Shown here piece by piece: positions 13,702 to 27,465 of a stretch of DNA of 64,000 bases. The notes below the pieces were generated by a model, which had not been told where the DNA came from, made no database searches, and was given only the letters and a program-made list of their open reading frames with translations. Position 1 is the first letter of the stretch, and the number at the start of each line of letters is the position of its first letter. The DNA comes from Spirosoma sp. SC4-14 (lineage in GTDB: Bacteria; Bacteroidota; Bacteroidia; Cytophagales; Spirosomataceae). The stretch covers positions 2,727,001-2,791,000 of the forward strand of contig NZ_CP147518.1 in assembly GCF_037201965.1 (NCBI RefSeq), given 5' to 3'. The translations under genes and the position numbers were made by a program.

Positions 13702-14031
13702 TTATTCAGGAAGCTCGTCATAATCCGATTCTTCCGGATCATCTTCCGTGCCATCGTTATTGCCCAGCGAATCGGCATTGCCGTAATTCGACAGATCTGG
13801 CGCCATATTCGGGCTTCCCGAAACGGCACCCATACCTTTGTTTATTTCCTGCGCTTCCTGCTCGTCAGTTGGGGTTGTTGGGGCAGAATTTGCATCACCC
13901 GATAAATCGGTAGGAGCATACGATTCGCTCAGCATATCACTTTCATCCGGTATCTGGATGGGGCCGCCTGTTTCGGGTTGAAACGATTGCGATGGCTCAT
14001 TGAGCATGGCATCCTGATTGGTATTTTCCAT
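13702..14031 (-). CDS. Small acidic, probably disordered protein
   Basis: 109 codons from ATG at 14031 (the frame extends 10 codons further to a TTG, less likely). No recognised domain. It is dominated by Asp, Glu, Ser, Pro and Asn with almost no hydrophobic runs (e.g. DGTEDDPEESDYDELPE at the end), so an unstructured acidic protein is expected. It converges on the DUF892 gene and shares its terminator region. Its composition resembles the disordered tail of that neighbour, and both may be stress-related, but this is only inference. Confidence 0.55.
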   Translation of the reverse strand: MENTNQDAMLNEPSQSFQPETGGPIQIPDESDMLSESYAPTDLSGDANSAPTTPTDEQEAQEINKGMGAVSGSPNMAPDLSNYGNADSLGNNDGTEDDPEESDYDELPE

Positions 14032-14082
14032 AGTATTTTGTTTAGCTGGTTTATAGGTCAAACTAAAATCCAGCCAATATGA

Positions 14083-14523
14083 TTAGCCTCGTGTAAATAC
14101 TTCCCACAGGCGGCTTTGCAATTTTCCGGCATAGGTCTTAACATCGAGATGGGACGCGTGAATCGTAAACGGACTAAACTGATGGGGAGCCGACGACAGT
14201 GGTTCAATCCGAATGGTTCGCCCGGTAGTCCAGCGCCCGGCCAACCGACGGACCGAGCCGGTTAACCGAACTCCGGCATCAATCAGATCAACGGCGCAAC
14301 TCTCGGGGTGTTGAGCTGTTGCCAGCACATGAGAAAACCGCTGCAATTGGTCGGCGTCGAACCAGGACAACTTCGGAAAATTCAATTGATTCGTCTGGCG
14401 GCCTTTGCGAAAAAGAACCTGTAAGGACAGTAAAGACTGTCCTGTTGCCGGACCTGACAATACTTGCAGGTCTAGAACTTCTAATGGTGATGTCCCTGAT
14501 GCTGTAGCGAGTTCAATGTTCAT
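14083..14523 (-). CDS. Hypothetical protein
   Basis: 146 codons from ATG at 14523; a TTG at 14565 would add 14 residues. I do not recognise the family. It has no signal peptide or membrane segment; it mixes short beta-like strands and basic patches (TGSVRRLAGRWTTGRTIRI). It lies 65 bp after the SDR gene on the same strand and 51 bp before the acidic-protein gene, so the three may be co-transcribed. Confidence 0.5.
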   Translation of the reverse strand: MNIELATASGTSPLEVLDLQVLSGPATGQSLLSLQVLFRKGRQTNQLNFPKLSWFDADQLQRFSHVLATAQHPESCAVDLIDAGVRLTGSVRRLAGRWTTGRTIRIEPLSSAPHQFSPFTIHASHLDVKTYAGKLQSRLWEVFTRG

Positions 14524-14588
14524 ATAGGGAGATGAAGAAGATAAAGTAAGCAGTAAACCGGACAAAGGTAGGAGATGTTTTCTCTTCT

Positions 14589-15338
14589 TTATACGTAGAT
14601 CATCTTCCGGGTTATGCCACCATCCACTATAAAGTTCTGCCCGGTGATAAAGTTATTTTCCGGCGCAATCAGAAACAGAATCATACGGGCAATATCGTCG
14701 GCCTGTCCCACTCGGCCAGCCGGGTGCTGAGCATGATCTTCGGGGCGTAGTTCTTCGGGTTTGGCTTTTGATTTTTTCTTTAATGCTGATACATCAATCC
14801 AGCCCGGACTGATGGCATTGACCCGAATGTCGGGGCCGAGACTAATGGCCAGTGAATGCGTCAGAGCCAGAATTCCTCCTTTGCTGGCCGAATAGGGGAA
14901 GGTATCGGGTTCAGATTGAAAAGCCCGCGTTGACCCCAGGTTAATGATACTCCCTTTTTGCTGGGCCAGGTACTGAGCCGTGTGCTTGGCACATAGAAAA
15001 GCACCCGTCAGGTTTGTACCGATTACGCGATTCCATTCGTCGAGGGTTAGTTTGTCGAGCGATTTTTCGATCATGATGGCTGCATTGTTAATGAGCGCAT
15101 CGATCTGGCCGAAATGTGAAACGGTTTGCTCGGCAGCTTTCCGAACATTCATCTCACTCGACACATCGCAGGATACGAAGAGAATCTGGGCCGACGATGC
15201 TTTGAATGCTTCGCGAAGTTCGGCCAGGGCATCGGTGTCCGACTCCCAGATGGCTACGCGGTAGCCGTGTGTAAGCAAATACTGTGTGACGACTCGGCCG
15301 ATACCCTGGCCTCCGCCGGTAATGATAGCTGTTCTCAT
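14589..15338 (-). CDS. Short-chain dehydrogenase/reductase (SDR)
   Basis: 249 codons from ATG at 15338. Classical SDR: Rossmann nucleotide-binding TGGGQGIG at 7-14, NNAA at about 84-87, catalytic tetrad Asn109, Ser136, Tyr149 and Lys153 (YSASKGG), and the C-terminal ITGQNFIVDGG typical of 3-oxoacyl-ACP reductase-like members. The residue after the second strand (WESD) suggests NAD(H) preference. Cytoplasmic oxidoreductase; substrate cannot be told from sequence. It diverges from the histone-deacetylase-family gene at 15449, with 110 bp between the starts. Confidence 0.92.
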   Translation of the reverse strand: MRTAIITGGGQGIGRVVTQYLLTHGYRVAIWESDTDALAELREAFKASSAQILFVSCDVSSEMNVRKAAEQTVSHFGQIDALINNAAIMIEKSLDKLTLDEWNRVIGTNLTGAFLCAKHTAQYLAQQKGSIINLGSTRAFQSEPDTFPYSASKGGILALTHSLAISLGPDIRVNAISPGWIDVSALKKKSKAKPEELRPEDHAQHPAGRVGQADDIARMILFLIAPENNFITGQNFIVDGGITRKMIYV

Positions 15339-15448
15339 ACAAGTTGGATAAATCCTAAAAACGTCTAAATCGGTAGGATTGGTAACAGAATTAGATGATG
15401 TTGGGTTAACTAAACCGTATCTTTATCGAACGGGCTATTTCTATTGGC

Positions 15449-16351
15449 ATGCTTCAGATTGCTTTTTCGCCGGTTTATCGACTTAGACTCCCTGAAGGTC
15501 ACCGGTTTCCAATGCTTAAGTATGAACTAATTTATGAACAGTTGCTTTACGAAGGCACTTGCAGCGATAACAATTTTTTTGCGCCGGACCCCGTTAACGA
15601 CCGTTGGGTGCTGGGTGTGCATACGGCGGAGTATGTGTTGGCCCTGAAAACCCTGACCATTGCGCCTGCGATGATGCGCCGGATTGGCTTTCCATTAACG
15701 AAAGAACTGATTGATAGGGAGTGGGTCATCACTCAGGGAACCATCGACTGCACACAGATTGCCTTTCGCGATGGTGTTGCCATGAACATTGCTGGCGGAA
15801 CACACCATGCATATCCCGATCGGGGCGAAGGTTTTTGTTTGCTTAATGACGTAGGTGTAGCTGCTCATTATTTGCTGGAAACGGGTCGGGCAAAGAAAAT
15901 TCTGGTCATTGATCTTGATGTGCATCAGGGCAACGGAACGGCCGTAATGTTTCAGCACGAACCACGGGTTTTCACGTTCAGCATGCACGGTAAAGACAAC
16001 TATCCGCTCAAAAAAGAACAGTCGGATCTGGATGTTGAACTTCCAACCGGCATGGCCGACAATGCTTATCTGACAACTCTTACCGATACGCTACCGGCGC
16101 TGATCCGACGCGAACAACCCGATTTTCTGTTTTATATCTCAGGTGTCGATATACTGGAGTCAGATCGGCTGGGTAAACTCGGCGTTTCGCGGGAGGGCTG
16201 TAAAGAGCGGGATGCATTCGTTTTCAATCAGGCAAAAGCATTCGGGCTGCCCATAGTAGTGTCGATGGGTGGAGGATATTCGCCCCGCCTGACCGATATT
16301 GTCGAAGCGCACTGCAATACATTTCGGGTGGCGGCCAATCTGTTTTTCTGA
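15449..16351 (+). CDS. Histone deacetylase/AcuC/AphA family hydrolase
   Basis: 300 codons from ATG at 15449. Class II-like bacterial HDAC fold: GGTHHAYPDRGEGFCLLND (substrate tunnel and catalytic His pair), then DLDVHQGNGTA carrying zinc ligands Asp and His, HGKDNYP, SGVDILESDRLG with the third zinc ligand Asp, and GGGYSP near the end. It should remove acyl groups from amines: polyamines, acetyl-lysine in proteins or a small metabolite. No acetyltransferase is nearby to indicate which. Cytoplasmic, monocistronic, divergent from the SDR gene. Confidence 0.9.
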   Translation: MLQIAFSPVYRLRLPEGHRFPMLKYELIYEQLLYEGTCSDNNFFAPDPVNDRWVLGVHTAEYVLALKTLTIAPAMMRRIGFPLTKELIDREWVITQGTIDCTQIAFRDGVAMNIAGGTHHAYPDRGEGFCLLNDVGVAAHYLLETGRAKKILVIDLDVHQGNGTAVMFQHEPRVFTFSMHGKDNYPLKKEQSDLDVELPTGMADNAYLTTLTDTLPALIRREQPDFLFYISGVDILESDRLGKLGVSREGCKERDAFVFNQAKAFGLPIVVSMGGGYSPRLTDIVEAHCNTFRVAANLFF

Positions 16352-16808
16352 CCCGGAACCACATAAATAGTGTTGTAGAAACGGTCTGTTGACTGGTTCC
16401 TGATCCAATCATGAGGTAGATAGAAGGCAAACAAAACGAAACCGTTGAGTTCACAATTCCATGATTGGGAGCGAGAACCAGGCTTCTGGGGTGCATTGAT
16501 TGGGGGTATTTTCAGGTTTGTCTGATCAGGCTATCTGTTAAATGAGTAGAAAAAGATTACCCCAGCCCCTATACTACAGGAAAACAACACCAGACCGGGG
16601 CTATGCCCGATCGATAAACCTGAACATTCATTCGAATGATAGCACAGTTTATCGGAGATTCTTAACTGTAGTTGTATCTTGGCATCACTATTAATAATGA
16701 TGAGCGTAGGTAATAGATCCGTTTTTCAGGCGGCTCTATCTAAGCGATTTCATCTGAGCGACTCCAAATGAAATAAAGCAAAACGAATGGCCTCGTTTTG
16801 TTCCTTAT
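16352..16808. other. Intergenic region upstream of the aldolase/hydantoinase cluster
   Basis: No gene is supported in 457 bases. The minus-strand frames here lack family features and overlap each other. The cluster promoter should lie here; TATCTTGG near 16674 is one mismatch from the TAnnTTTG element but has no matching TTTG partner, so I do not call it. Confidence 0.4.
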
Positions 16809-17570
16809 ATGAAGCAGAACATTGTTAAAACCCGGCTCAAAAATAATCAGCCCGTTTTAGGTATCCTTTCCAATAGTACTGATCCAACAGTAGCTGAACT
16901 TTGTGGTTTTTCGGGCCTGGATTTTTACATGATCGATGGTGAGCATAGTCCTGTAACTACTGCGCAGGTGCAGGAAATAGTGCGGGCTTGTGAAGTAAGC
17001 GGTATTACGCCACTGGCTCGTGTGCGCAGCAATGACCCCAAACTGATACTCCAGTTTCTGGACGCTGGCGTAATGGGTATTATGATGCCAGGAGTTAAAA
17101 CCGTGGCTGAGGTTGAAACATTGGTTCAGGCCGTAAAATATCCTCCGTTGGGGAATCGTGGTTTTGGCCCGGCCCGAGCGTCAGATTATTTACTGGGGGC
17201 TATGAACCAGGGCGAATTTGTTGCTTTCTCGAATGAACAGACGCTAATATTGCCCCAGATCGAAGATCGGGAAGCGATCGACAACATCGACGACCTGTTG
17301 GCAGTTGCAGGTATCGATGGGTTCGTAATCGGTCCTCGCGATCTGGCTATGTCGATGGGATACTACGATGGGCCTGCGCACGATGAAGTGAAGCGAACCA
17401 TTGCGGGAGTAGTCGAAAAAATACGAAAAGCAGGGCTGGTGGCAGGTACCACAGCCGCTACTGGCGATCAGGCCAGAGCCTTGATCGACCGGGGTGTTTT
17501 GTTTTGCCTCAATTCGTTTGCCGGGCTACTAAAGCTGGCCGCCGGCGATTACATGAAAGGACGGCAATAA
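16809..17570 (+). CDS. HpcH/HpaI-family class II aldolase
   Basis: 253 codons from ATG at 16809. Matches the HpcH/HpaI aldolase family (2-keto-3-deoxy sugar-acid and 4-hydroxy-2-oxo-acid aldolases): YMIDGEHSP with His46, ARVRSND with Arg71, and metal ligands Glu152 (LPQIED) and Asp178 (IGPRDLAMS). These enzymes reversibly split 4-hydroxy-2-oxo acids into pyruvate and an aldehyde using a divalent metal. The usual 'EHG' after the Asp is EHS here. First gene of a plus-strand cluster; the hydantoinase A gene starts 82 bp further on. Its presence beside hydantoinase-like ATPases suggests catabolism of a specific compound rather than housekeeping. Confidence 0.88.
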   Translation: MKQNIVKTRLKNNQPVLGILSNSTDPTVAELCGFSGLDFYMIDGEHSPVTTAQVQEIVRACEVSGITPLARVRSNDPKLILQFLDAGVMGIMMPGVKTVAEVETLVQAVKYPPLGNRGFGPARASDYLLGAMNQGEFVAFSNEQTLILPQIEDREAIDNIDDLLAVAGIDGFVIGPRDLAMSMGYYDGPAHDEVKRTIAGVVEKIRKAGLVAGTTAATGDQARALIDRGVLFCLNSFAGLLKLAAGDYMKGRQ

Positions 17571-17652
17571 GCAGGTATCAGCCAACAGGTGTGGCGATAC
17601 CATCCCAGGTCGGTTGTTGATTGATACCTGTTCATCGAAAAGGGTGTTTCTT

Positions 17653-19749
17653 ATGTACAAAATCGGTATTGATATAGGAGGTACGTTTACTGATCTGGTT
17701 CTGCTGAACGATACAACGGGTGAGCTGGTGTTTGGCAAAACCCTGACTACCTACCATAACCCCGCTGGTGGCATTATAACCGGCATTACCGATTTGCTGA
17801 ACCGGGCTGAACTGCACCTGAACGATATTGATATGATTGTTCATGGAACCACGTTGGTAACGAATGCCATTTTTGAGCGAAAAGGAGCAAAAACCGGGTT
17901 AATCACCACACGCGGATTTGAAGATGTACTGGAAATCGGGCGCGAATACCGATACGATATATATGATCTTCAGATAACAATGCCCGATCCGCTGATTCCC
18001 CGCAACCTCCGTTTGGGTATTACAGAGCGAATCGATTTTCAGGGCAATGTGCTGACACCGTTGCTGGAGACCGAGATAGCTTCTGTGGTTGATGAGCTTG
18101 TTGGCAAAGGGGTGCAGGCCATTGCGGTGTGTCTGCTTCAGTCGTTTGCCAATCCAGTTCACGAACGGAGAGTCGGTGATTTTATTCAACGGCATTATCC
18201 GGCTATTTCGGTTAGTTTATCGGTCGATATTATGCCCGAAATTCGGGAATATGAGCGTACATCAACTACTGTCTTAAACGCCTATGTACAACCCCTGATC
18301 GATCGGTATTTCAATGCGTTGCAGAATCAGCTTACGGCTTTAGGGTTTAAGGGAGCCGTCAGGATTATGGTGTCGAACGGTCGGCTGACCACGCTCGGCG
18401 AAGCGCAGCGAAAACCCATTCAGCTTCTGGAGTCCGGACCGGCTGGGGGGGCGATGGCAGGTGTATTTTTTGGGAAGCTTACGGGCCATACCGACATTGC
18501 TACGTTCGATATGGGCGGTACGACGGCAAAAACCTCACTCATATTTAACCATCAGCCCGAAATTACCAATGAATTTGAGGCTGCCAGAGTCCGGCGATTT
18601 AAGCAGGGATCTGGGTTACCGGTTCGGATACCGGTAATTGATATCAATGAAATTGGGGCAGGAGGGAGCAGTATAGCCTATGTAGATAAATTAGGCTTAC
18701 TCAAAGTGGGTCCCGAAAGTGCAACATCGGACCCCGGTCCTGCCTGCTATGGCCGAGGAGGGACACGCCCTACTGTAACAGATTGTGATTTGCTGTTGGG
18801 GTACCTGAACGAAGCATTTTTTCTGGGGGGAACTATCCGTCTGGACAAGGAAGCTGCTCAACAGGCAATCGAAGAACATATTGCCCGACCGCTCGGTATT
18901 AGTGTTCAGCAGGCTGCCATGGGCGTTCACCGGATTGTTAACGAAAACATGGCGAATGCGGCTCGGGTGCATATTCTCGACAAAGGCCATGATCCTCGTA
19001 ACTATAGTTTACTGGCTTTTGGTGGAGCAGGCCCTGTTCATGCATTCGATGTTGCCCGACTGCTGGGTTCTCCAGAGCTTATTATCCCAACGGGAGCAGG
19101 TGTAGCGTCGGCCTTAGGGTTTCTGGTATCGCCTACCGCCTACGAATGCGTACGTAGCTATGTAAATCATGTTGCCTCAATTGACTGGATTCGCCTGAAC
19201 GATCTGTTGGCCGAAATGGAAGAAGAAGGGTATGCGTTTCTGGAAAAAGCCGGACACAAGTCGGCTGATGCCATGGTTAGCCGGTCGGCAGGGATGCGCT
19301 ACGTTGGACAGGGGCACGAAATTGCCGTAAAGATTCCAAACGGAATATTGTCGGCGGTCTCGGCCGAAGAAATAGAAGCTAATTTTCGGGAAGAGTATGA
19401 GCTTCGGTTTGGCCGAACCATCGCTAAAGCCGCCATTGAGGCCGTAAGCTGGCGCGTAATTGTCAGTTGCCCTTCAGTATTGTTTAAGCCCAAGCAGCGG
19501 GAAATCAATACAACCTATCGGATCGGCGACCGTGATTTTTCGGGACTGAAAGGCTACCGGCAAGTGTATTATATGGGCGACGACGTTCCGTGTGCCTGTC
19601 CGGTTTATGATCGGTATAAAATTCGTCCGAACGATTATTTGTCGGGGCCTGTAATCATTGAAGAAATAGAATCTACTGTTGTCATTGGCCGTCATGCGTA
19701 TGTTCGTATGGACGAACACCGAAACCTGATTGTCAGTCTGCGACGCTGA
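17653..19749 (+). CDS. Hydantoinase A / N-methylhydantoinase-type ATPase subunit
   Basis: 698 codons from ATG at 17653, which puts the conserved KIGIDIGGTFTDLVL at residue 3; an upstream TTG is less likely. It has the hydantoinase/oxoprolinase N-terminal domain (phosphate-binding GIDIGGTFTD), HGTTLVTNAIFERKGA, the actin-like second half (ESGPAGGAMAG, FDMGGTTAKTS), DPGPACYGRGG and LLAFGGAGPVHA. The family uses ATP to activate a lactam, cyclic amide or carbonyl substrate (5-oxoproline, N-methylhydantoin, acetone). The B subunit gene follows 31 bp after the stop. Substrate cannot be assigned; a fused homologue of the same family is at 35531-39355. Confidence 0.92.
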   Translation: MYKIGIDIGGTFTDLVLLNDTTGELVFGKTLTTYHNPAGGIITGITDLLNRAELHLNDIDMIVHGTTLVTNAIFERKGAKTGLITTRGFEDVLEIGREYRYDIYDLQITMPDPLIPRNLRLGITERIDFQGNVLTPLLETEIASVVDELVGKGVQAIAVCLLQSFANPVHERRVGDFIQRHYPAISVSLSVDIMPEIREYERTSTTVLNAYVQPLIDRYFNALQNQLTALGFKGAVRIMVSNGRLTTLGEAQRKPIQLLESGPAGGAMAGVFFGKLTGHTDIATFDMGGTTAKTSLIFNHQPEITNEFEAARVRRFKQGSGLPVRIPVIDINEIGAGGSSIAYVDKLGLLKVGPESATSDPGPACYGRGGTRPTVTDCDLLLGYLNEAFFLGGTIRLDKEAAQQAIEEHIARPLGISVQQAAMGVHRIVNENMANAARVHILDKGHDPRNYSLLAFGGAGPVHAFDVARLLGSPELIIPTGAGVASALGFLVSPTAYECVRSYVNHVASIDWIRLNDLLAEMEEEGYAFLEKAGHKSADAMVSRSAGMRYVGQGHEIAVKIPNGILSAVSAEEIEANFREEYELRFGRTIAKAAIEAVSWRVIVSCPSVLFKPKQREINTTYRIGDRDFSGLKGYRQVYYMGDDVPCACPVYDRYKIRPNDYLSGPVIIEEIESTVVIGRHAYVRMDEHRNLIVSLRR

Positions 19750-19780
19750 TAAAAAAAGCCATAGACCCTATGTTGTAGTC

Positions 19781-21451
19781 ATGGAATCGACCGAAAGCCT
19801 GAATACCTATGATGCTATCACCCTAAGCATCCTCTGGGCACGACTCGTTGCTATTGTCGACGAAGCCGGAACAATACTACGGCGAACGTCTTTCTCGACC
19901 GGCACCCGTGAGTCCAGCGATTTCGCCATTGTATTGATGGATACTGACGGAAACTCACTGGCTCAGTCGACCACCAGCGTGCCTTCATTTATGGGAGTTC
20001 TGCCGATGCTGGTTCGATCCTTACTAGCCGGTAATTTCCCATTAGCAAAGTGGCAACCTGGCGACGTGGTAATTACAAACGACCCGTGGTTATGTGCCGG
20101 GGCGAAAGCGGATGTCGGGATTATTGCTCCTGTTTTCCGGTCGCAAAGTGATTTCGGTGACATAAAACTGATTGGTTTCATGGGATGCGTTGCCCACTCG
20201 CCCGACATGGGCGGAATACTCTGGGGAGCTGGCGCTCGTGATCTATATGAAGAAGGCTTGCTAATTCCGCCTGTTAAATTATATGAATCTGGTAATCAGA
20301 ATCAATTGATTCTGACACTTATTGAGGCCAATGTGCGGGCTCCGCAACAAACCATCGGCGATATTCGGGCGCAGGTGTCAGCCATTGAGCAGGGCGTTCG
20401 TTCGCTGATGCGCATGATGGACGAATACCAGATGGATAATCTTGAGCCATTGGCCCGGCAAATTCTCGACGCATCGGAGCGGGCAATGCGTGAGGCAATC
20501 CGAAAAGCACCTGATGGGCAGTACCACTATTTTTATCCGATTGATGGGGATGGACTCAATGAGCCTGCGTTTATCAACTGCCTGGTTCAGATTCAGGACG
20601 ATGAAATTACGGTCGATTATGATGGCACGTCGGGCGTTCATTCATTAGCAATCAATGCTGCTTTTAATTATGTGTATGCCTATACAACGTACCCGATCAT
20701 TTGCGTTTTTAGCCCCGACGTACCCAGTAATGAAGGCGCATTGCGTCCCATTCGGGTTTCTGCCCCTATAGGTTCATTACTCAATGCACAACCTCCTGCT
20801 CCATTAGGCGCTCGCTATATAACGGGCAATTTATTACAGGCTCCGCTTTTCGGAGCTTTGGCGCAGGCTGTTCCTGACTTAGTACAGGCCGATAGTGGTT
20901 CTGCCTGCTGGAGTATAGTTCTGCACGGACAGCGGGAAATTCCCGTAAAAACAAAAACTGGGGTCGAAACGCAAAAGATCGAATTTGTAGAATATTGTTT
21001 CCTGAATGGTGGCTACGGTGCTCGTCCGACCAAAGATGGTGTTAATGTATTGAGTTTCCCGACAAATGTAGCAAACGTGCCAATTGAAGTGCTGGAACGA
21101 AATGCTCCCATATTGATAACCGAAAAATCGTTGAGGCCAGGCACGGGAGGAGCCGGTAAATTTCGTGGAGGGTTAGGACAAGTTTTTTCGTTTAAGATGG
21201 TTGGTACTGACCCTATTACAGTGTCTATTCTGACAGAAAAAACAAAGACCGTTGCCCATGGAATGCTAGGTGGAGAACCGGGAGCAGCGGGAGCCATCAT
21301 TAGCAATCGGAAATTACCTCCCAAGGGACTTGCCCGGCTCTATGCGGGCGATGAAATCACGCTGCAACTACCGGGTGGGGGCGGATATGGATTGGCATCG
21401 GAGCGCGACCCGGTAGCCACTCGCCGGGATAATGAATTAGGCTATAGCTGA
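19781..21451 (+). CDS. Hydantoinase B subunit
   Basis: 556 codons from ATG at 19781; an alternative TTG at 19730 would overlap the A-subunit gene. Family features: LVAIVDEAGTILRRTSFS, RESSDFAIVLMDTDG, PGDVVITNDPWLCAGAK, GFMGCVAHSPDMGG, PEVRVSAPIGS-like middle and the C-terminal RPGTGGAGKFRGGLGQVF ... LPGGGGYG. It is the usual catalytic partner of hydantoinase A in ATP-dependent opening of cyclic amides. The usual HxxDIGG of the family reads HSPDMGG, which keeps the His and Asp. Directly followed by the methyltransferase gene (76 bp). Confidence 0.92.
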   Translation: MESTESLNTYDAITLSILWARLVAIVDEAGTILRRTSFSTGTRESSDFAIVLMDTDGNSLAQSTTSVPSFMGVLPMLVRSLLAGNFPLAKWQPGDVVITNDPWLCAGAKADVGIIAPVFRSQSDFGDIKLIGFMGCVAHSPDMGGILWGAGARDLYEEGLLIPPVKLYESGNQNQLILTLIEANVRAPQQTIGDIRAQVSAIEQGVRSLMRMMDEYQMDNLEPLARQILDASERAMREAIRKAPDGQYHYFYPIDGDGLNEPAFINCLVQIQDDEITVDYDGTSGVHSLAINAAFNYVYAYTTYPIICVFSPDVPSNEGALRPIRVSAPIGSLLNAQPPAPLGARYITGNLLQAPLFGALAQAVPDLVQADSGSACWSIVLHGQREIPVKTKTGVETQKIEFVEYCFLNGGYGARPTKDGVNVLSFPTNVANVPIEVLERNAPILITEKSLRPGTGGAGKFRGGLGQVFSFKMVGTDPITVSILTEKTKTVAHGMLGGEPGAAGAIISNRKLPPKGLARLYAGDEITLQLPGGGGYGLASERDPVATRRDNELGYS

Positions 21452-21527
21452 CCATAGCTTAAGTCTATCTTAAACCTTTCGGTAAGCCGTCAGTTTATTT
21501 GCAGGAGCACATAAACGGAAAAGATTG

Positions 21528-22733
21528 ATGAACGACGATAGGGCCATACTGTATAACCTGCCGCCTGTCTACAATCGTGTTGAAAAGCATGGTGCTTTTC
21601 CTGATATATCACACGACGAGACTGCCCGTTTCAATTTTCTGACCGGTTTGAACCGTCACCTGAATCGGATTGTAGAACCAGGGGTTAAAGCTATTTTTGA
21701 GAAGCGCGTAAGGCCTCGATTTGAAGCGCAGACTGGGCGTCTGTTTACCACCGCCGACGAAATTCAGGAGATGATGATGCAGGATTCTCAGTATCAAGTT
21801 GGCAGCGCGCTACGCCGGTCTACGATTGAAATGATTCAGCAGGCGACGCGCTCGGTGGTTTTGCGCCAGATTGATGAGTTGGCAGAAAAAGCGCGGTACT
21901 ATAATAACCAGCGTCCGGAAACACTCAAACTCAATCCGGCTGTAGAGATTCCCTGCTATCTGAGTGTTATTGATCAGGGCTGCATGCCGGGTAGTTATTA
22001 TACCGAATACGGCAACGACGATGTAACGAATGCGGCAAACTATGATGCTGGGCAGTTTCTTATAACGGATGGACGCTTGGGGAAGCTTTCAGACGGTATT
22101 GGCCGGGGTTTGGTTCAGTGGCTACGGCTTAACTATCCGACCTTTAGCCCAAAACAAATCCTCGACATTGGCTGTGGTAGTGGTTATCAAACATTACCAG
22201 TAGCTATGGGGTATCCTGATGCCGACATAATTGGGGTTGATGTTAGTGCCCCAATGCTGCGCTATGGTCATGCCCGTATGGTAGCGTTGGGTGTTGATAA
22301 GGTAACGTTCTGGCAAGCCAATGCCGAGCAATTGCCTTTTGTCGATAATTCATTCGATCTGGTTTTTACGACAAGATTTTTGCACGAGATTCCGGCAAAT
22401 TCGGTCGAGGCAATCATTCAGGAAATTTACCGGATACTAAAACCCAATGGCTTAATGCTTCATATCGATCAGGCTGGCAATGCAGAAGCTATTCCTTTAT
22501 TTGATCAGTTTGTGCATAATTGGCGAGCCCTGACCAACAACGAACTTTTTAGCCTGGATATACCCCAAAGAAACATTGTAAAATGGCTTCACTCGGGCGG
22601 TTTTGCCGAAAGAGATCGACTGCAATTTGGTATAGAGGTCATAAATGACTTTGCTGGAAAGAGTACACCCATCGAAGCAGGAGCTGAGCGTGTGGCACCT
22701 CTGATTCAGCATGTTTTTGGTGGCTGGAAGTGA
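21528..22733 (+). CDS. SAM-dependent methyltransferase with unrecognised N-terminal half
   Basis: 401 codons from ATG at 21528. The C-terminal half (from about 205) is a class I methyltransferase: motif I ILDIGCGSGYQTLP near 212-225, acidic end of strand 2 (IIGVDVS), VTFWQANAEQLPF, FDLVFTTRFLHE and ILKPNGLMLHIDQ. The first 200 residues are helical and not recognised (e.g. EKRVRPRFEAQTGR, MIQQATRSVVLRQIDELAEKA) and may bind the acceptor substrate or form a partner interface. Position right after hydantoinase A/B suggests it acts on the same metabolite. Methyl acceptor unknown. Confidence 0.85.
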   Translation: MNDDRAILYNLPPVYNRVEKHGAFPDISHDETARFNFLTGLNRHLNRIVEPGVKAIFEKRVRPRFEAQTGRLFTTADEIQEMMMQDSQYQVGSALRRSTIEMIQQATRSVVLRQIDELAEKARYYNNQRPETLKLNPAVEIPCYLSVIDQGCMPGSYYTEYGNDDVTNAANYDAGQFLITDGRLGKLSDGIGRGLVQWLRLNYPTFSPKQILDIGCGSGYQTLPVAMGYPDADIIGVDVSAPMLRYGHARMVALGVDKVTFWQANAEQLPFVDNSFDLVFTTRFLHEIPANSVEAIIQEIYRILKPNGLMLHIDQAGNAEAIPLFDQFVHNWRALTNNELFSLDIPQRNIVKWLHSGGFAERDRLQFGIEVINDFAGKSTPIEAGAERVAPLIQHVFGGWK

Positions 22734-22808
22734 ATGCCAGGAGGCAATTATTGCCTTCTGCGAAAACTTTTTATCGATATGGCAAACAAATTATCATAAA
22801 CTGCAATT

Positions 22809-23180
22809 ATGATTAATAACATTACACTTTCCGGAGCCAGAGCCAAAGGGCCACGGCCTTATAGTTTAGGCGATAGATCTCTGGAAGATGCACTGAATAT
22901 TATAATGGCACTGGCTGGTGAGCTGGCCGTTGTTCGTGAACGTTTAGACACGCTCGAACGATTACTTGAGCAAAAAGGGGTGGTTTTGCCGGAAGAAGTT
23001 GACCAGTTTGTTCCAACGTATGACCAGGAAAAAAAACGTCAGCAATGGCAGGCCGATTATATAGCGCGAATCCTTCGTATCGTACAACAGGAACTGGAAG
23101 CTATCCAACAACCGACCCTTAATAACTCTAATATGAAAGAAATCTTAGAAGAATTGGGAATAAGTCAGGAAATTGATTGA
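22809..23180 (+). CDS. Small coiled-coil protein of the hydantoinase cluster
   Basis: 123 codons from ATG at 22809, 75 bp after the methyltransferase. I know no family for it. The opening 25 residues are Gly/Arg-rich (SGARAKGPRPYSLGDRS); residues about 25-58 form a predicted amphipathic coiled coil (ALAGELAVVRERLDTLERLL) and a second helix runs from about 75 to 98 (WQADYIARILRIVQQELEAI). It could be a subunit or scaffold for the neighbouring enzymes. Same strand and spacing as the preceding genes, so likely part of the operon. Confidence 0.6.
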   Translation: MINNITLSGARAKGPRPYSLGDRSLEDALNIIMALAGELAVVRERLDTLERLLEQKGVVLPEEVDQFVPTYDQEKKRQQWQADYIARILRIVQQELEAIQQPTLNNSNMKEILEELGISQEID

Positions 23181-23183
23181 TGT

Positions 23184-23306
23184 ATGAAATCTTTTGTTGG
23201 CGAATTAACAGTTAATACCTATAATTGGACGATCAAATACTATTGGTCGTTTAAGGTTACAAAGGGCGAGTATTACAAAAGAAACATACCAATGGAACCT
23301 ACTTAA
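23184..23306 (+). CDS. Possible 40-codon peptide gene
   Basis: ATG at 23184 lies 3 bp after the stop of the coiled-coil gene and opens a 40-codon frame ending TAA at 23304. The peptide is rich in Tyr, Trp and Lys (TVNTYNWTIKYYWSFKVTK). Tight coupling to the preceding stop argues for translation; the small size and the lack of any known family argue against. It might be a chance ORF at the end of the operon, or a short accessory or precursor peptide. Confidence 0.3.
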   Translation: MKSFVGELTVNTYNWTIKYYWSFKVTKGEYYKRNIPMEPT

Positions 23307-23702
23307 CAGGTAGCCATCCATTCTTGTTTTTTTGAAAATATTATCCACACTCGATCATAAATTTTCCAACCGATATCTGTTTTTTAGAGTCTTGTTTTAA
23401 CGGATTGGACTAAGACTTTTAGAGAATAGGTAAAGTCAGTGATCAGCCTCTTTTAAGAAAAAAACAACATTTTACGTTTAACCAGATTAACTGTGTGCTA
23501 AAAGTTATAATAATTTTGTGTGGCAACTTAAGCATTAATCCGTCCTATAGTTGCTTGCAGAATCTTATAATATAGGCACTTAGTTAGAAGAGTAACAAAA
23601 GTTGTTCATTACCTGAGTTGGCCGTTACATAAGTTTCTTGAATGGCTTTTGGGAGAATTAAAGTTTAGTTTGAAACATTGCGTCAAAATTAATTACGTAC
23701 CT
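23307..23702. other. Intergenic region upstream of the outer-membrane protein gene
   Basis: About 400 AT-rich bases with no gene seen. TAATTTTG at 23511-23518 matches the TAnnTTTG -7 element, but no TTTG is found at the right distance. If used, it would give a leader of about 180 nt before the ATG at 23703. Confidence 0.35.
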
Positions 23703-25712
23703 ATGCGAACATTTATCCAACGACACCCCCTGCGGATGCTGGCTGGACTCGTGTTGCTGAGTTTTGCTGCCCCTTATGGCACAATGGCCCAACAGGCCGA
23801 TACTGTCCGGGCTAATACCCGAACCACCAATTACCAACGAGAGAATATCTATCGTTTGGGCAAAGGAGTCTATACTGATACACTACGTCGGGATGATTTC
23901 AAAGCTCAGGCAAGTGACGTTGCTGAGTTGGATGATTGCGACACTACCTTCCAAACATTTATTCTCGTACGGCGTTTGTCGCCCTGGCGGATTGGTCTTT
24001 TCGCCGGGCCTAACTTCGCTTATTGCGGTACGTGGGAAAATACGTTTGGTCCCAACAAACGGGATAAGACTCTCTACAATGGAGCCGGATTTAATATTAC
24101 GGCTACCGTTCAGTATTTTCTGACGCCAGCAACCCGTCGGCTTCGTTTTGCCGTAGGGTCTGTATTTGGGTATCAAAATTATATTACCCGAAATATTTAT
24201 CGGGATTACCTCTATGGTCTGGCAGCCGCTCAGGGTGTTACTCAGGATCAGGTAACCATCAAGCAACGGGCTTCGGAAGATATGTTCCTGACCGTTGGGC
24301 CAGCTTTAACATTTACGCTGGCACGGAGCCGTAAGAATCCGGATGCAACGACGTTTATTGAAGCAGGTGCATACGGCGGACTTTTCCGTACCGAAGCTGC
24401 AACCATTGCGGCCTTCATTCCATCGCAGGGTAACATCATTCCAAGTGGCCCGCTGGTAACAGGTGGCCGACTGATTCGTTCGGTTAATCCAAGCTCAAAT
24501 CTGTATCACTTAGGAGCTATTGGTAATCTGGGTATTTTCTTCCCAATTGGTCGCAACAACTGGAACATTGGTATTCAGGGGCAGGGCTTTATTACGAAGC
24601 TGAACTACCTGATCGTTAATGGCCAGCAGGATGTTCTGTATGAGTTTAAACGGACTCACGGTGGTTTCAGCGCTGGTCTGGCACTTCGTAAAGGATTTGT
24701 CCAGAAAAAGCTGATTCCAAAAGCACCAACGGTTTGCCCAACCTGCGACTCGATTCCAGAACTCCAGGTGCAGTTTAATGGAAATACGCTCAAAGGTGTA
24801 TCGCTGGCTTATGTTGATGAGTCGAATGCTCAACAAATGCCTCCGGTTAATACATCGGCAGCCGCTCCTGTAATTAGCTGGCGCAGCACAACACCGAATC
24901 CGAAAAACGAAACCTTTACGGCTCGTCTGTACTATCGTCCGGATTCTGTGACAACAAGTGCTTCGGATATGGTGATTGCTCAACTGGAAAATACGACCGA
25001 TACCCAACTGACATTCCCAACAGCTTACTTCGCAAATGGGCAAATGGCTCCAGGGTTCTATTACGTAACCGTTCACAACCAGCAGTCGGCCAAGTGCGGC
25101 TCTTGTATGAGTGAAGTGGCTACCACGAGCTTCTCGGTTCTTCGGCCGCGTAAAGAAGTGGTTGAGTGCGAATATCGCCACCGTCTGGAGCGTCTGGAAG
25201 TATACTACCGCACTCCATATACGCGTGAAGTGGCTAATGTCTGCTACTGTAATGGAACAATCACGTCGGTTGGCGACACCGTTACTCGCCTGCGCTACCG
25301 TGGTCTGAACCGTCAACTGGCTACCAGCGCCATCGAATTCGATACCAACACGGTTATCCTGAACCTGCGCGATCTGCCAGGCGATCTGGCTCAGCAGCTA
25401 CAGGCTGAAAAAGCCAAAATCGAAAGCGGTAATGCGATTCGTTACAAAGGCCGTCGCGTTCGCCCACAGGTACAGTACTTCCGCGCGGTGTTCACCGTTA
25501 CGAAACTGCCATGCAACGGTCAGCCTGAACAGCCAGTTGGTAGCTTCAACACAACGATTAGCGACAACAGCTACTCGATCACTGATCTGAAGCCTCTGAC
25601 CGATGAGCAGAAAGCTAAATTGCTGGCACCCCCTGCACCTAAGAAAAAAGCAACACGTCGCCGGGCTGGTAACAGCGGTCGCCGGTCAGATGTAATGTTC
25701 GGTGTAGAATAA
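23703..25712 (+). CDS. Exported outer-membrane-barrel-like protein with Cys-bearing C-terminal region
   Basis: 669 codons from ATG at 23703, giving a clean signal peptide (MRTFIQRHPLRMLAGLVLLS ... TMAQ); a TTG 54 bases upstream is unlikely. Residues about 70-340 alternate as amphipathic strands with aromatic ends (RIGLFAGPNFAYCGTW, FNITATVQYFL, RLRFAVGSVFGYQNYI), like an outer-membrane beta-barrel. The rest carries paired cysteines (CPTCDS, KCGSCMSE, CYCNG) and immunoglobulin-like strands. It ends in a basic tail (KKKATRRRAGNSGRRSD). Many Arg codons in the C-terminal half are CGT, which suggests strong expression. No function assigned. A clear terminator follows. Confidence 0.7.
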   Translation: MRTFIQRHPLRMLAGLVLLSFAAPYGTMAQQADTVRANTRTTNYQRENIYRLGKGVYTDTLRRDDFKAQASDVAELDDCDTTFQTFILVRRLSPWRIGLFAGPNFAYCGTWENTFGPNKRDKTLYNGAGFNITATVQYFLTPATRRLRFAVGSVFGYQNYITRNIYRDYLYGLAAAQGVTQDQVTIKQRASEDMFLTVGPALTFTLARSRKNPDATTFIEAGAYGGLFRTEAATIAAFIPSQGNIIPSGPLVTGGRLIRSVNPSSNLYHLGAIGNLGIFFPIGRNNWNIGIQGQGFITKLNYLIVNGQQDVLYEFKRTHGGFSAGLALRKGFVQKKLIPKAPTVCPTCDSIPELQVQFNGNTLKGVSLAYVDESNAQQMPPVNTSAAAPVISWRSTTPNPKNETFTARLYYRPDSVTTSASDMVIAQLENTTDTQLTFPTAYFANGQMAPGFYYVTVHNQQSAKCGSCMSEVATTSFSVLRPRKEVVECEYRHRLERLEVYYRTPYTREVANVCYCNGTITSVGDTVTRLRYRGLNRQLATSAIEFDTNTVILNLRDLPGDLAQQLQAEKAKIESGNAIRYKGRRVRPQVQYFRAVFTVTKLPCNGQPEQPVGSFNTTISDNSYSITDLKPLTDEQKAKLLAPPAPKKKATRRRAGNSGRRSDVMFGVE

Positions 25713-25730
25713 TTAAAGCAACACGGAATG

Positions 25731-25765
25731 AAAAAGCCGGAAGCCAACGCTTCCGGCTTTTTTTT
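25731..25765 (+). terminator. Rho-independent terminator
   Basis: Stem AAAAAGCCGGAAGC (25731-25744), 4-nt loop, complementary arm GCTTCCGGCTTTTT and a T-run to 25765, 18 bp after the stop of the outer-membrane protein gene. Confidence 0.88.
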
Positions 25766-25926
25766 GCCTGAAATAAGGTAGGCCATCGGTCATGGGCCAG
25801 AGGCTGGCAGACGATTAGTGAGTTTGAATAATAAGTTTGTCGATGGCTATTGCTGGCTCTCGGGATCACTAACAGTAACAACTTTCTGATTCAGCTCTCC
25901 AGGCCAATGCACCACTACAAAAAGGA

Positions 25927-26943
25927 TCAACGTTTAACGATAGTAAAGGCAGCAATACCTTCAAACGATTTTACACGTTCGGTTCGTGCTCCTTTCGGTT
26001 TGGCAAAAACATAAAGCGTTAAATTGCCCTGCTGCGAAACAGGTATGCTCAGTTGATAAGTGTTGCCCAACCGCTTCGTGGTAAACAGGACATCAGTGGC
26101 TGTAGAGCCGCCTTGCCGCCCAATTGAACACATAAATTCAATGTCCTGATCATTACGGAATGAAAGGGTAAGGGTGTTTCCTGAACGAATCAGGCCGTTT
26201 TTAGGGAAATCAGGATCGAAGCCCAGCCTAAAATAGGTATCATACAGTTTCGGGAAGTGGTCGAACTGCGCTTTAGTGATCGAAGGCGACAGTAATTGCC
26301 AGCGTTGATCGAGTGGAAAATGATTGGCTGCAAAAGGGAGTGGCTCGGTCAGGAAGAAGAAATCGTTTGGATGCAGTTGCCCATCGGTTCCTACTTTTGC
26401 TGTTGTTTGCGCCCAGGCAATATCGAGCAAATACCAGTCACCATCGAGCTGAACGGCATTCCATTCGTGATCAATCTGAGCAATTGGCTGGCCCGCATCG
26501 CTATCGTTGGTGCGCGAGTACCCTTTGATTGTGACAACCGGAATACCCGTACGTCCCAGTATGTGTTTGAATAAAAGAGCAAAACCCGTACAAACCGCTC
26601 GGCGGTTCCGTAATGTTCGGTTCGCATAGTCTATTTCTGACGAATACCGCCGACCACTAAATGCTGATTCATCATAGCGTATGTGCGATGTGATCCAGGC
26701 ATATACCGAGCGGGCTTTAGCCAGATCAGTGCGAGCCGGAGACGTCAGGTAATCGCTCAGAGTCGTTAAGTTTTTAGCCGCTGATTCGGGAGCATTCCGG
26801 GCATACGTATCGATGGTGCTATAGTCAATTTCAACAAATTTCGATGGGCGGGGAATTCCGGGGCCAACTATGCTGCGAGCTGTAAAAGCTGGCGTAAAAA
26901 AAGAAAGAAAAGCCAGTATAGGCCAGATGATGTAGTTTCGCAT
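25927..26943 (-). CDS. Exported transglutaminase-like (cysteine protease fold) protein
   Basis: 338 codons from ATG at 26943, signal peptide ending near FTA. The transglutaminase core is clear: Cys118 in RRAVCTGFA, His159 in IDHEWNAVQ and Asp174 in WYLLDIAWAQ, with the preceding helix VYAWITSHIRYD typical of the family. The final 90 residues look like a beta-sandwich. Bacterial relatives act as peptidases or cross-linking enzymes in the envelope; substrate unknown. It diverges from the PPC-domain gene, whose start is only 33 bp away, so both promoters must overlap the neighbouring coding starts or be very compact. Confidence 0.85.
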   Translation of the reverse strand: MRNYIIWPILAFLSFFTPAFTARSIVGPGIPRPSKFVEIDYSTIDTYARNAPESAAKNLTTLSDYLTSPARTDLAKARSVYAWITSHIRYDESAFSGRRYSSEIDYANRTLRNRRAVCTGFALLFKHILGRTGIPVVTIKGYSRTNDSDAGQPIAQIDHEWNAVQLDGDWYLLDIAWAQTTAKVGTDGQLHPNDFFFLTEPLPFAANHFPLDQRWQLLSPSITKAQFDHFPKLYDTYFRLGFDPDFPKNGLIRSGNTLTLSFRNDQDIEFMCSIGRQGGSTATDVLFTTKRLGNTYQLSIPVSQQGNLTLYVFAKPKGARTERVKSFEGIAAFTIVKR

Positions 26944-26976
26944 TCCTCAGTTCAATCTCACAACCTGATAACATAA

Positions 26977-27465
26977 ATGCGAAGTTTTTTATTGCTGATT
27001 TTACTAGTTTGCTGTATGACTCCTTCCGATGCTCAGCCAATTGTGCCTGTTGAGGCAACTATGCATACGTACTCGTTTCGCCTGCGTCCGGGGCAGGATT
27101 TAAAGAAAGAGCTGGAAACGCTGGCTCAGAAACAGCGCCTGGGAGCTGGGGTTATCCTTACCTGCGTAGGGAGCCTTACCGAGCTAACCTTACGCCTGGC
27201 AAATCAGGAGAAGGGAAGCAAATGGAGCGGCCATTTTGAGATTGTCTCATTGGCTGGAACGCTTTCCATGCATGGCAGCCATCTGCATCTGTCAGCTTCT
27301 GATTCAACGGGCAGAACCTTTGGCGGGCACTTACTGGATGGCTGTAAAATTTATACGACAGCAGAAATTGTGATCGGTGTAATGCCTGAGCTGGATTACG
27401 TTCGGGAACCCGACCCGACCTATGGATACCATGAATTAGTGGTAAAAAAACGAAAAAAGAAGTAA
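26977..27465 (+). CDS. Exported PPC (DUF296) domain protein
   Basis: 162 codons from ATG at 26977. After an apparent signal peptide (MRSFLLLILLVCCMTPSDA, cleavage before QP), residues about 30-150 match the PPC/DUF296 domain: HTYSFRLRPGQDLKKELE, GVILTCVGSLTELTLR, FEIVSLAGTLS, HLHLSASDSTG and GGHLLDGCKIYTTAEIVIG. The family is best known as DNA-binding in plants, with small bacterial trimeric forms of unclear function. The signal peptide implies a periplasmic role not tied to DNA. Tail is basic (VVKKRKKK). A convergent hairpin separates it from the nuclease gene. Confidence 0.85.
   Translation: MRSFLLLILLVCCMTPSDAQPIVPVEATMHTYSFRLRPGQDLKKELETLAQKQRLGAGVILTCVGSLTELTLRLANQEKGSKWSGHFEIVSLAGTLSMHGSHLHLSASDSTGRTFGGHLLDGCKIYTTAEIVIGVMPELDYVREPDPTYGYHELVVKKRKKK

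Follow-up and report, generated by a model that had tools for sequence, protein, structure and literature searches.

We analysed a 64,000-nucleotide stretch (the window) of the 8.1-Mb genome of Spirosoma sp. SC4-14, in which six open reading frames follow one another on the forward strand (Table 1). The first five encode an aldolase, the paired subunits HyuA and HyuB of a cyclic-amide hydrolase, a methyltransferase (MT), and a small helical protein (cc); the sixth has 40 codons. A sequence-only reading had described these as six same-strand frames with gaps of 3–82 bp. The positions and gaps are exact (82, 31, 76, 75, and 3 bp, from the aldolase to the 40-codon ORF), but the sixth frame is not a gene. 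The same reading had assigned an HpcH/HpaI aldolase, a HyuA/HyuB pair, and a methyltransferase, and Pfam bears out all of these assignments.

Codon comparison with Spirosoma-type relatives places dN far below dS for all five genes. Synonymous sites are often saturated among these relatives, and ratios are given only where they could be computed: dN/dS lies at 0.02–0.20 for the aldolase, HyuA, HyuB, and MT, and at 0.08–0.35 for cc. The five are real genes under purifying selection.

Table 1. Features of the locus, in window coordinates.
Feature	Coordinates	Strand	Evidence
Aldolase, HpcH/HpaI-type (class II pyruvate)	16809-17570	+	Pfam; YfaU/HpaI motif alignment
HyuA, ATP-binding subunit of ATP-dependent cyclic-amide hydrolase	17653-19749	+	Pfam, NCBIfam, solved relatives
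HyuB, catalytic subunit partner of HyuA	19781-21451	+	Pfam, solved relatives
MT, SAM-dependent methyltransferase	21528-22733	+	Pfam, AlphaFold model, relatives
cc, small helical-hairpin protein, near-obligate MT partner	22809-23180	+	Gene order; low-confidence model
40-codon ORF, chance frame, not a gene	23184-23306	+	Broken in related loci
Exported-looking protein, genus-conserved, downstream edge of variable site	23703-25712	+	Neighbourhoods of loci L210-L212

The 40-codon ORF had been put forward as a possible peptide gene, and it could in principle be the precursor of a ribosomally made, modified peptide that is tailored by MT and the Hyu enzymes: it begins 3 bp past cc and is rich in Tyr and Trp. 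Alignment with five related loci refutes it as a conserved peptide gene; two of the five have ACG or GTG where the ATG start should be, and stops fall inside the frame at codon 7, 15, 24, or 31. Moreover, the full operons found elsewhere (see below) encode enzymes of small-molecule catabolism, and we regard a peptide system as scarcely credible. The frame is a chance ORF over conserved DNA. Some 40–55 bp right behind cc (23184–23240) are kept in six of six loci of the clade that carries the cassette, persist even where cc is reduced to a tail, and are found only in that clade. This interval also holds a promoter-like match, of a kind that occurs at chance level in the region; promoter and terminator scans as a whole are near chance there, and an Rfam scan of 14000–27000 returned no match.

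The HyuA–HyuB pair has the complete domain set of its family (Hydant_A_N, Hydantoinase_A, Hydant_A_C, and Hydantoinase_B), with Pfam E-values of 2e-90 for Hydantoinase_A in HyuA and 1e-139 for Hydantoinase_B in HyuB. N-methylhydantoinase is the closest solved relative of both subunits (HyuA 443 bits, HyuB 202 bits). Among NCBIfam models, caprolactamase ranks above acetophenone carboxylase, and caprolactamase alpha is the closest to HyuA. The pair nonetheless scores below the curated thresholds: 556 and 168 bits against a cut-off of 1000 for the CapAB equivalog, and 326 bits against 1500 for the acetophenone carboxylase (Apc) equivalog. Since the nearest relatives are N-methylhydantoinase and caprolactamase rather than the carboxylases, a cyclic amide is the suggested substrate class.

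The aldolase belongs to the HpcH/HpaI superfamily by its Pfam match (PF03328, 1.6e-33) and conserved catalytic motifs; its best solved relatives are YfaU and HpaI, and the GEH, Q-x-E, and GP-x-DL motifs align. It falls short of the HpaI, GarL, and 2-keto-3-deoxy-L-rhamnonate aldolase equivalogs, with 169, 139, and 148 bits against cut-offs of 369, 407, and 441. The gene occurs in 35 of 36 genomes of the genus, often without the cassette of hyuA, hyuB, MT, and cc, and MT in 5 of the 36; the aldolase is thus a genus-core gene and need not serve the cassette. It shares 48–54% identity with its homologues inside the full operon described below. In loci L038–L041 and L051, a regulator pair (a Reg_prop/Y_Y_Y histidine kinase and a response regulator) lies divergent to the aldolase. 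Next to the aldolase in the window (15449–16809), this two-component regulator pair is absent.

MT is a class I SAM-dependent methyltransferase: Pfam recognizes the class I domain from residue 209, and the Rossmann domain (209–360) carries the D-I-G-C-G-x-G SAM motif. Its first 200 or so residues had been called unrecognized, and this holds: residues 1–205 have no credible match in Pfam, NCBIfam, or PDB by sequence. In the AlphaFold model (pLDDT 78), this N-terminal domain is helical, and it is specific to the family. A structure search listed only the common class I methyltransferase fold, and the matches cover mainly residues 103–401 and barely test the N-terminal region. Searching 84,980 species genomes with the N-terminal half as query confirmed 287 relatives, and the family is present in Bacteroidota, Cyanobacteria (Nostocales), and Alphaproteobacteria. 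Nitrospirillum amazonense (L141, L142, L145) has four MT-family genes; one has a CaiB-type gene next to it, together with hydratase subunits and hyuAB, and another has an amine oxidase gene and an MFS gene nearby.

The 123-residue cc protein is helical, with a low-confidence model of a helical hairpin, and has neither a Pfam or NCBIfam match above cut-off nor a credible sequence relative in PDB. Two assignments were considered and rejected: anticodon-binding or nitrile hydratase proteins, whose matches stay under cut-off with a Pfam hint in only 1 of 13 members, and a duplicate of the MT N-terminal domain, whose helical motifs look similar but which gives no profile–profile match with about 100 sequences on each side.

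It is gene order that sets cc apart. The neighbourhood search proposed earlier, with the 22809 protein and the MT N-terminal half, finds cc homologues next to MT almost everywhere. In the fetched loci, the cc profile detects cc on the same strand and at most 500 bp downstream in 100 of 109 MT-family matches; among the other nine, five have cc within about 2.3 kb, two are cut by a contig end (leaving 107 scorable loci), and two have no cc. In Spirosoma's family, the two genes adjoin wherever both are visible. The pairing holds in Bacteroidota, Alphaproteobacteria, and Nostocales, while the neighbours vary: hyuB in Bacteroidota, HapK and SDR genes in Alphaproteobacteria, and a trpB-like gene in Nostocales. 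In several Nostocales genomes (L147–L160), MT-cc adjoins this highly conserved trpB-like gene, with no hyuAB in the stretches seen. A lack of homologues of the small proteins in similar clusters had been named as evidence against the proposed cluster; the 22809 protein has such homologues, and the 40-codon ORF is the one broken in relatives. The simplest reading of cc is as the second subunit of a two-subunit methyltransferase, a physical interaction suggested by gene order alone. The pair has stayed together in three phyla, although cc belongs to no known family and MT carries a domain of no assigned role, which makes it a strong candidate for a two-component enzyme.

In Flavobacteriaceae, Saprospiraceae, and Chitinophagaceae, the genes sit in a long, stereotyped operon. 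It runs from an aconitase-type large subunit (aconL) through an amine oxidase in some loci, the small subunit (aconS), the aldolase, a HapK-like gene, and an SDR to HyuA, and on through an FAD oxidoreductase in some loci, HyuB, MT, cc, and SnoaL. We counted these genes in 75 loci, the best-scoring part of the 287 relatives and a sample biased towards Bacteroidota; genes were called with a simple caller, and an apparent absence may reflect a contig end or a missed call. AconL, aconS, aldolase, HapK, SDR, HyuA, HyuB, and MT occur all together in 37 of the 75; the gene just before MT is HyuB in 45, the gene just after it is cc in 55, and SnoaL is present in 46. The frequencies of HyuB and SnoaL near MT make the link to a ring-opening pathway strong in Bacteroidota. 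The small hydratase subunit matches the LeuD/DmdB family, the FAD enzyme resembles flavocytochrome c/fumarate reductase, and some taxa add CpeT/CpcT-family, VOC, DUF1838, DUF3598, or MFS proteins.

Two Maribacter genomes encode a TonB-dependent receptor, two MFS transporters, and the E1 and E2 components of pyruvate dehydrogenase just upstream of the operon. Genes for uptake, ring opening, hydration, aldol cleavage, and pyruvate oxidation thus stand together, and catabolism is the best reading, although biosynthetic use may also be compatible with the gene content alone. We found no paper on the operon in the open-licence PMC literature. It is apparently an undescribed pathway, probably one that degrades a ring-shaped nitrogen compound. 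This long operon with its fixed gene order is common among Bacteroidota, yet its curated matches go no further than generic families; once its substrate is identified, the orphan cc, HapK-like, DUF1838, DUF3598, and CpeT-like families would gain a function.

The window holds much less than this operon. In the aldolase tree, the five MT carriers and one genome with only a tail of cc (L051) form a clade (support 96/96), and the hyuAB-MT-cc cassette is confined to it, with losses inside the clade. The site is bounded downstream by the 23703 gene, whose exported-looking product of 669 residues is about 90% conserved among the closest members of the genus and has no Pfam match. Between the aldolase and this gene, the site is empty in L210–L212, where the two directly adjoin; it holds a GNAT gene alone in L206, L207, and L213, and hyuA-GNAT-hyuB without MT-cc in L204. 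L040 and L041 keep MT-cc without hyuAB, and still other genomes have the aldolase beside different genes altogether. The SnoaL and small hydratase subunit of the operon, on which our genome-wide statement of absence for the genus rests, were found in none of the 36 genomes, and the positive controls elsewhere were detected. Without these two genes, what the window carries is a shortened version that remains under selection and not the full pathway. The simplest history in the genus is piece-by-piece loss of an operon fragment.

These results reshape what had been proposed for the six frames. As a unit they do not stand: a core aldolase beside a cassette that erodes piecemeal means that the frames are not one unit, and hyuAB and MT-cc are themselves separable. 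The enzymes do, however, recur together in other genomes, and the proposal of an undescribed metabolic or modification system survives in altered form, since they co-occur in an apparently undescribed operon. Our preferred explanation, to which we give a probability of about 0.55 with its pathway included, is that the hyuA-hyuB-MT-cc block is what remains, in reduced form and in one clade, of the widespread Bacteroidota catabolic operon. Judging from the enzyme families, HyuA and HyuB would use ATP to open the ring of a lactam, hydantoin, or imide; MT would methylate the substrate or an intermediate, with cc probably serving as a dedicated stabilizing or activating subunit. In complete operons, the FAD enzyme would desaturate, the LeuCD/DmdAB-type hydratase would hydrate an unsaturated dicarboxylate, and the SDR would oxidize; the HpcH/HpaI aldolase would then cleave to pyruvate, which could feed the pyruvate dehydrogenase encoded beside the Maribacter operon. 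Ring opening, methylation, and the core aldolase are what is left in Spirosoma, where they probably modify or detoxify compounds of the same class in a few steps.

Two observations weigh against the catabolic remnant: the distance of HyuA and HyuB from the caprolactamase cut-offs, and the occurrence of MT-cc without hyuAB, in two Spirosoma-type loci and by the trpB-like gene in Nostocales, which may point to a role of its own. Indeed, MT-cc could be a self-contained two-part methyltransferase that acts on a small molecule or macromolecule in many contexts, its job not defined by the hyuAB side. Pairing across three phyla despite differing neighbours, its retention in L040/L041, and the existence of small methyltransferase activators such as Trm112 all speak for such independence; the frequent company of HyuB and SnoaL in the 75 loci speaks against it, and we consider it possible but doubtful. 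Rather better placed, though still tentative, is a combined proposal. MT and cc would make up a two-subunit methyltransferase of a new class, and the complete operon would encode an aerobic route, so far undescribed, for a natural product with a cyclic amide that may derive from a bilin or pyrrole; this route would be common to Bacteroidota and, in part, to Alphaproteobacteria and Cyanobacteria.

A narrower proposal, in which bilins or other lactams and imides derived from pyrroles are what the full operon breaks down, strikes us as improbable. HyuAB would open the ring imide, the DmdAB-like hydratase would handle a dialkylmaleate, and CpeT/CpcT-like and DUF3598 lipocalin-type proteins would bind the chromophore. 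A member of the CpeT/CpcT (phycobilin lyase) family does occur in Flavobacteriaceae clusters (6e-14; for example, L095:11984-13036), as do a second, weakly CpeT-like family and DUF3598, and the LeuD/DmdB match of the small hydratase subunit fits. Yet CpeT-type proteins are missing from some clusters and none was seen at the window locus, the aldolase is HpaI-like and not a dimethylmalate lyase, no bilin-cleaving or heme-oxygenase-like gene was noticed among cluster genes with identified families, and the open-licence PMC literature yielded no supporting paper. The second CpeT-like family (c17) was rejected as a bilin lyase, since its resemblance is weak and confined to 3 of 14 members and no PDB match turned up. 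It is also unlikely, if slightly less so, that the Spirosoma cassette is a decaying leftover without function. The piecemeal losses (the cc tail in L051, the lone GNAT genes, and L204 without MT-cc) and the missing SnoaL and hydratase subunit are what decay would leave, but the five window genes are intact, with dN well below dS against relatives whose synonymous sites are near saturation.

Like the known N-methylhydantoinase, 5-oxoprolinase, and caprolactamase systems, the HyuA–HyuB pair has both subunits at full length, with N-methylhydantoinase as best solved relative; unlike them, it lies far under the curated equivalog cut-offs, and to our knowledge, a context of MT-cc, aldolase, and hydratase has no match in those systems. 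The aldolase shares with the class II pyruvate aldolases HpaI, GarL, and YfaU a near full-length match and motifs aligned to YfaU, but it is under every equivalog cut-off and is a genus-core gene in Spirosoma. Methyltransferases with a small activator subunit, such as the Trm112 partners, likewise combine a catalytic protein with a dedicated small partner gene, a partnership suggested here by gene order; cc differs in having no credible sequence match in PDB or Pfam. Nicotinate fermentation uses a DmdAB-type hydratase followed by dimethylmalate lyase, which yields pyruvate. The operon similarly couples a LeuC/LeuD/DmdB-type hydratase to a pyruvate-yielding cleavage enzyme, but its aldolase belongs to another superfamily than dimethylmalate lyase, and it adds HyuAB, MT-cc, an amine oxidase, HapK, and SnoaL.
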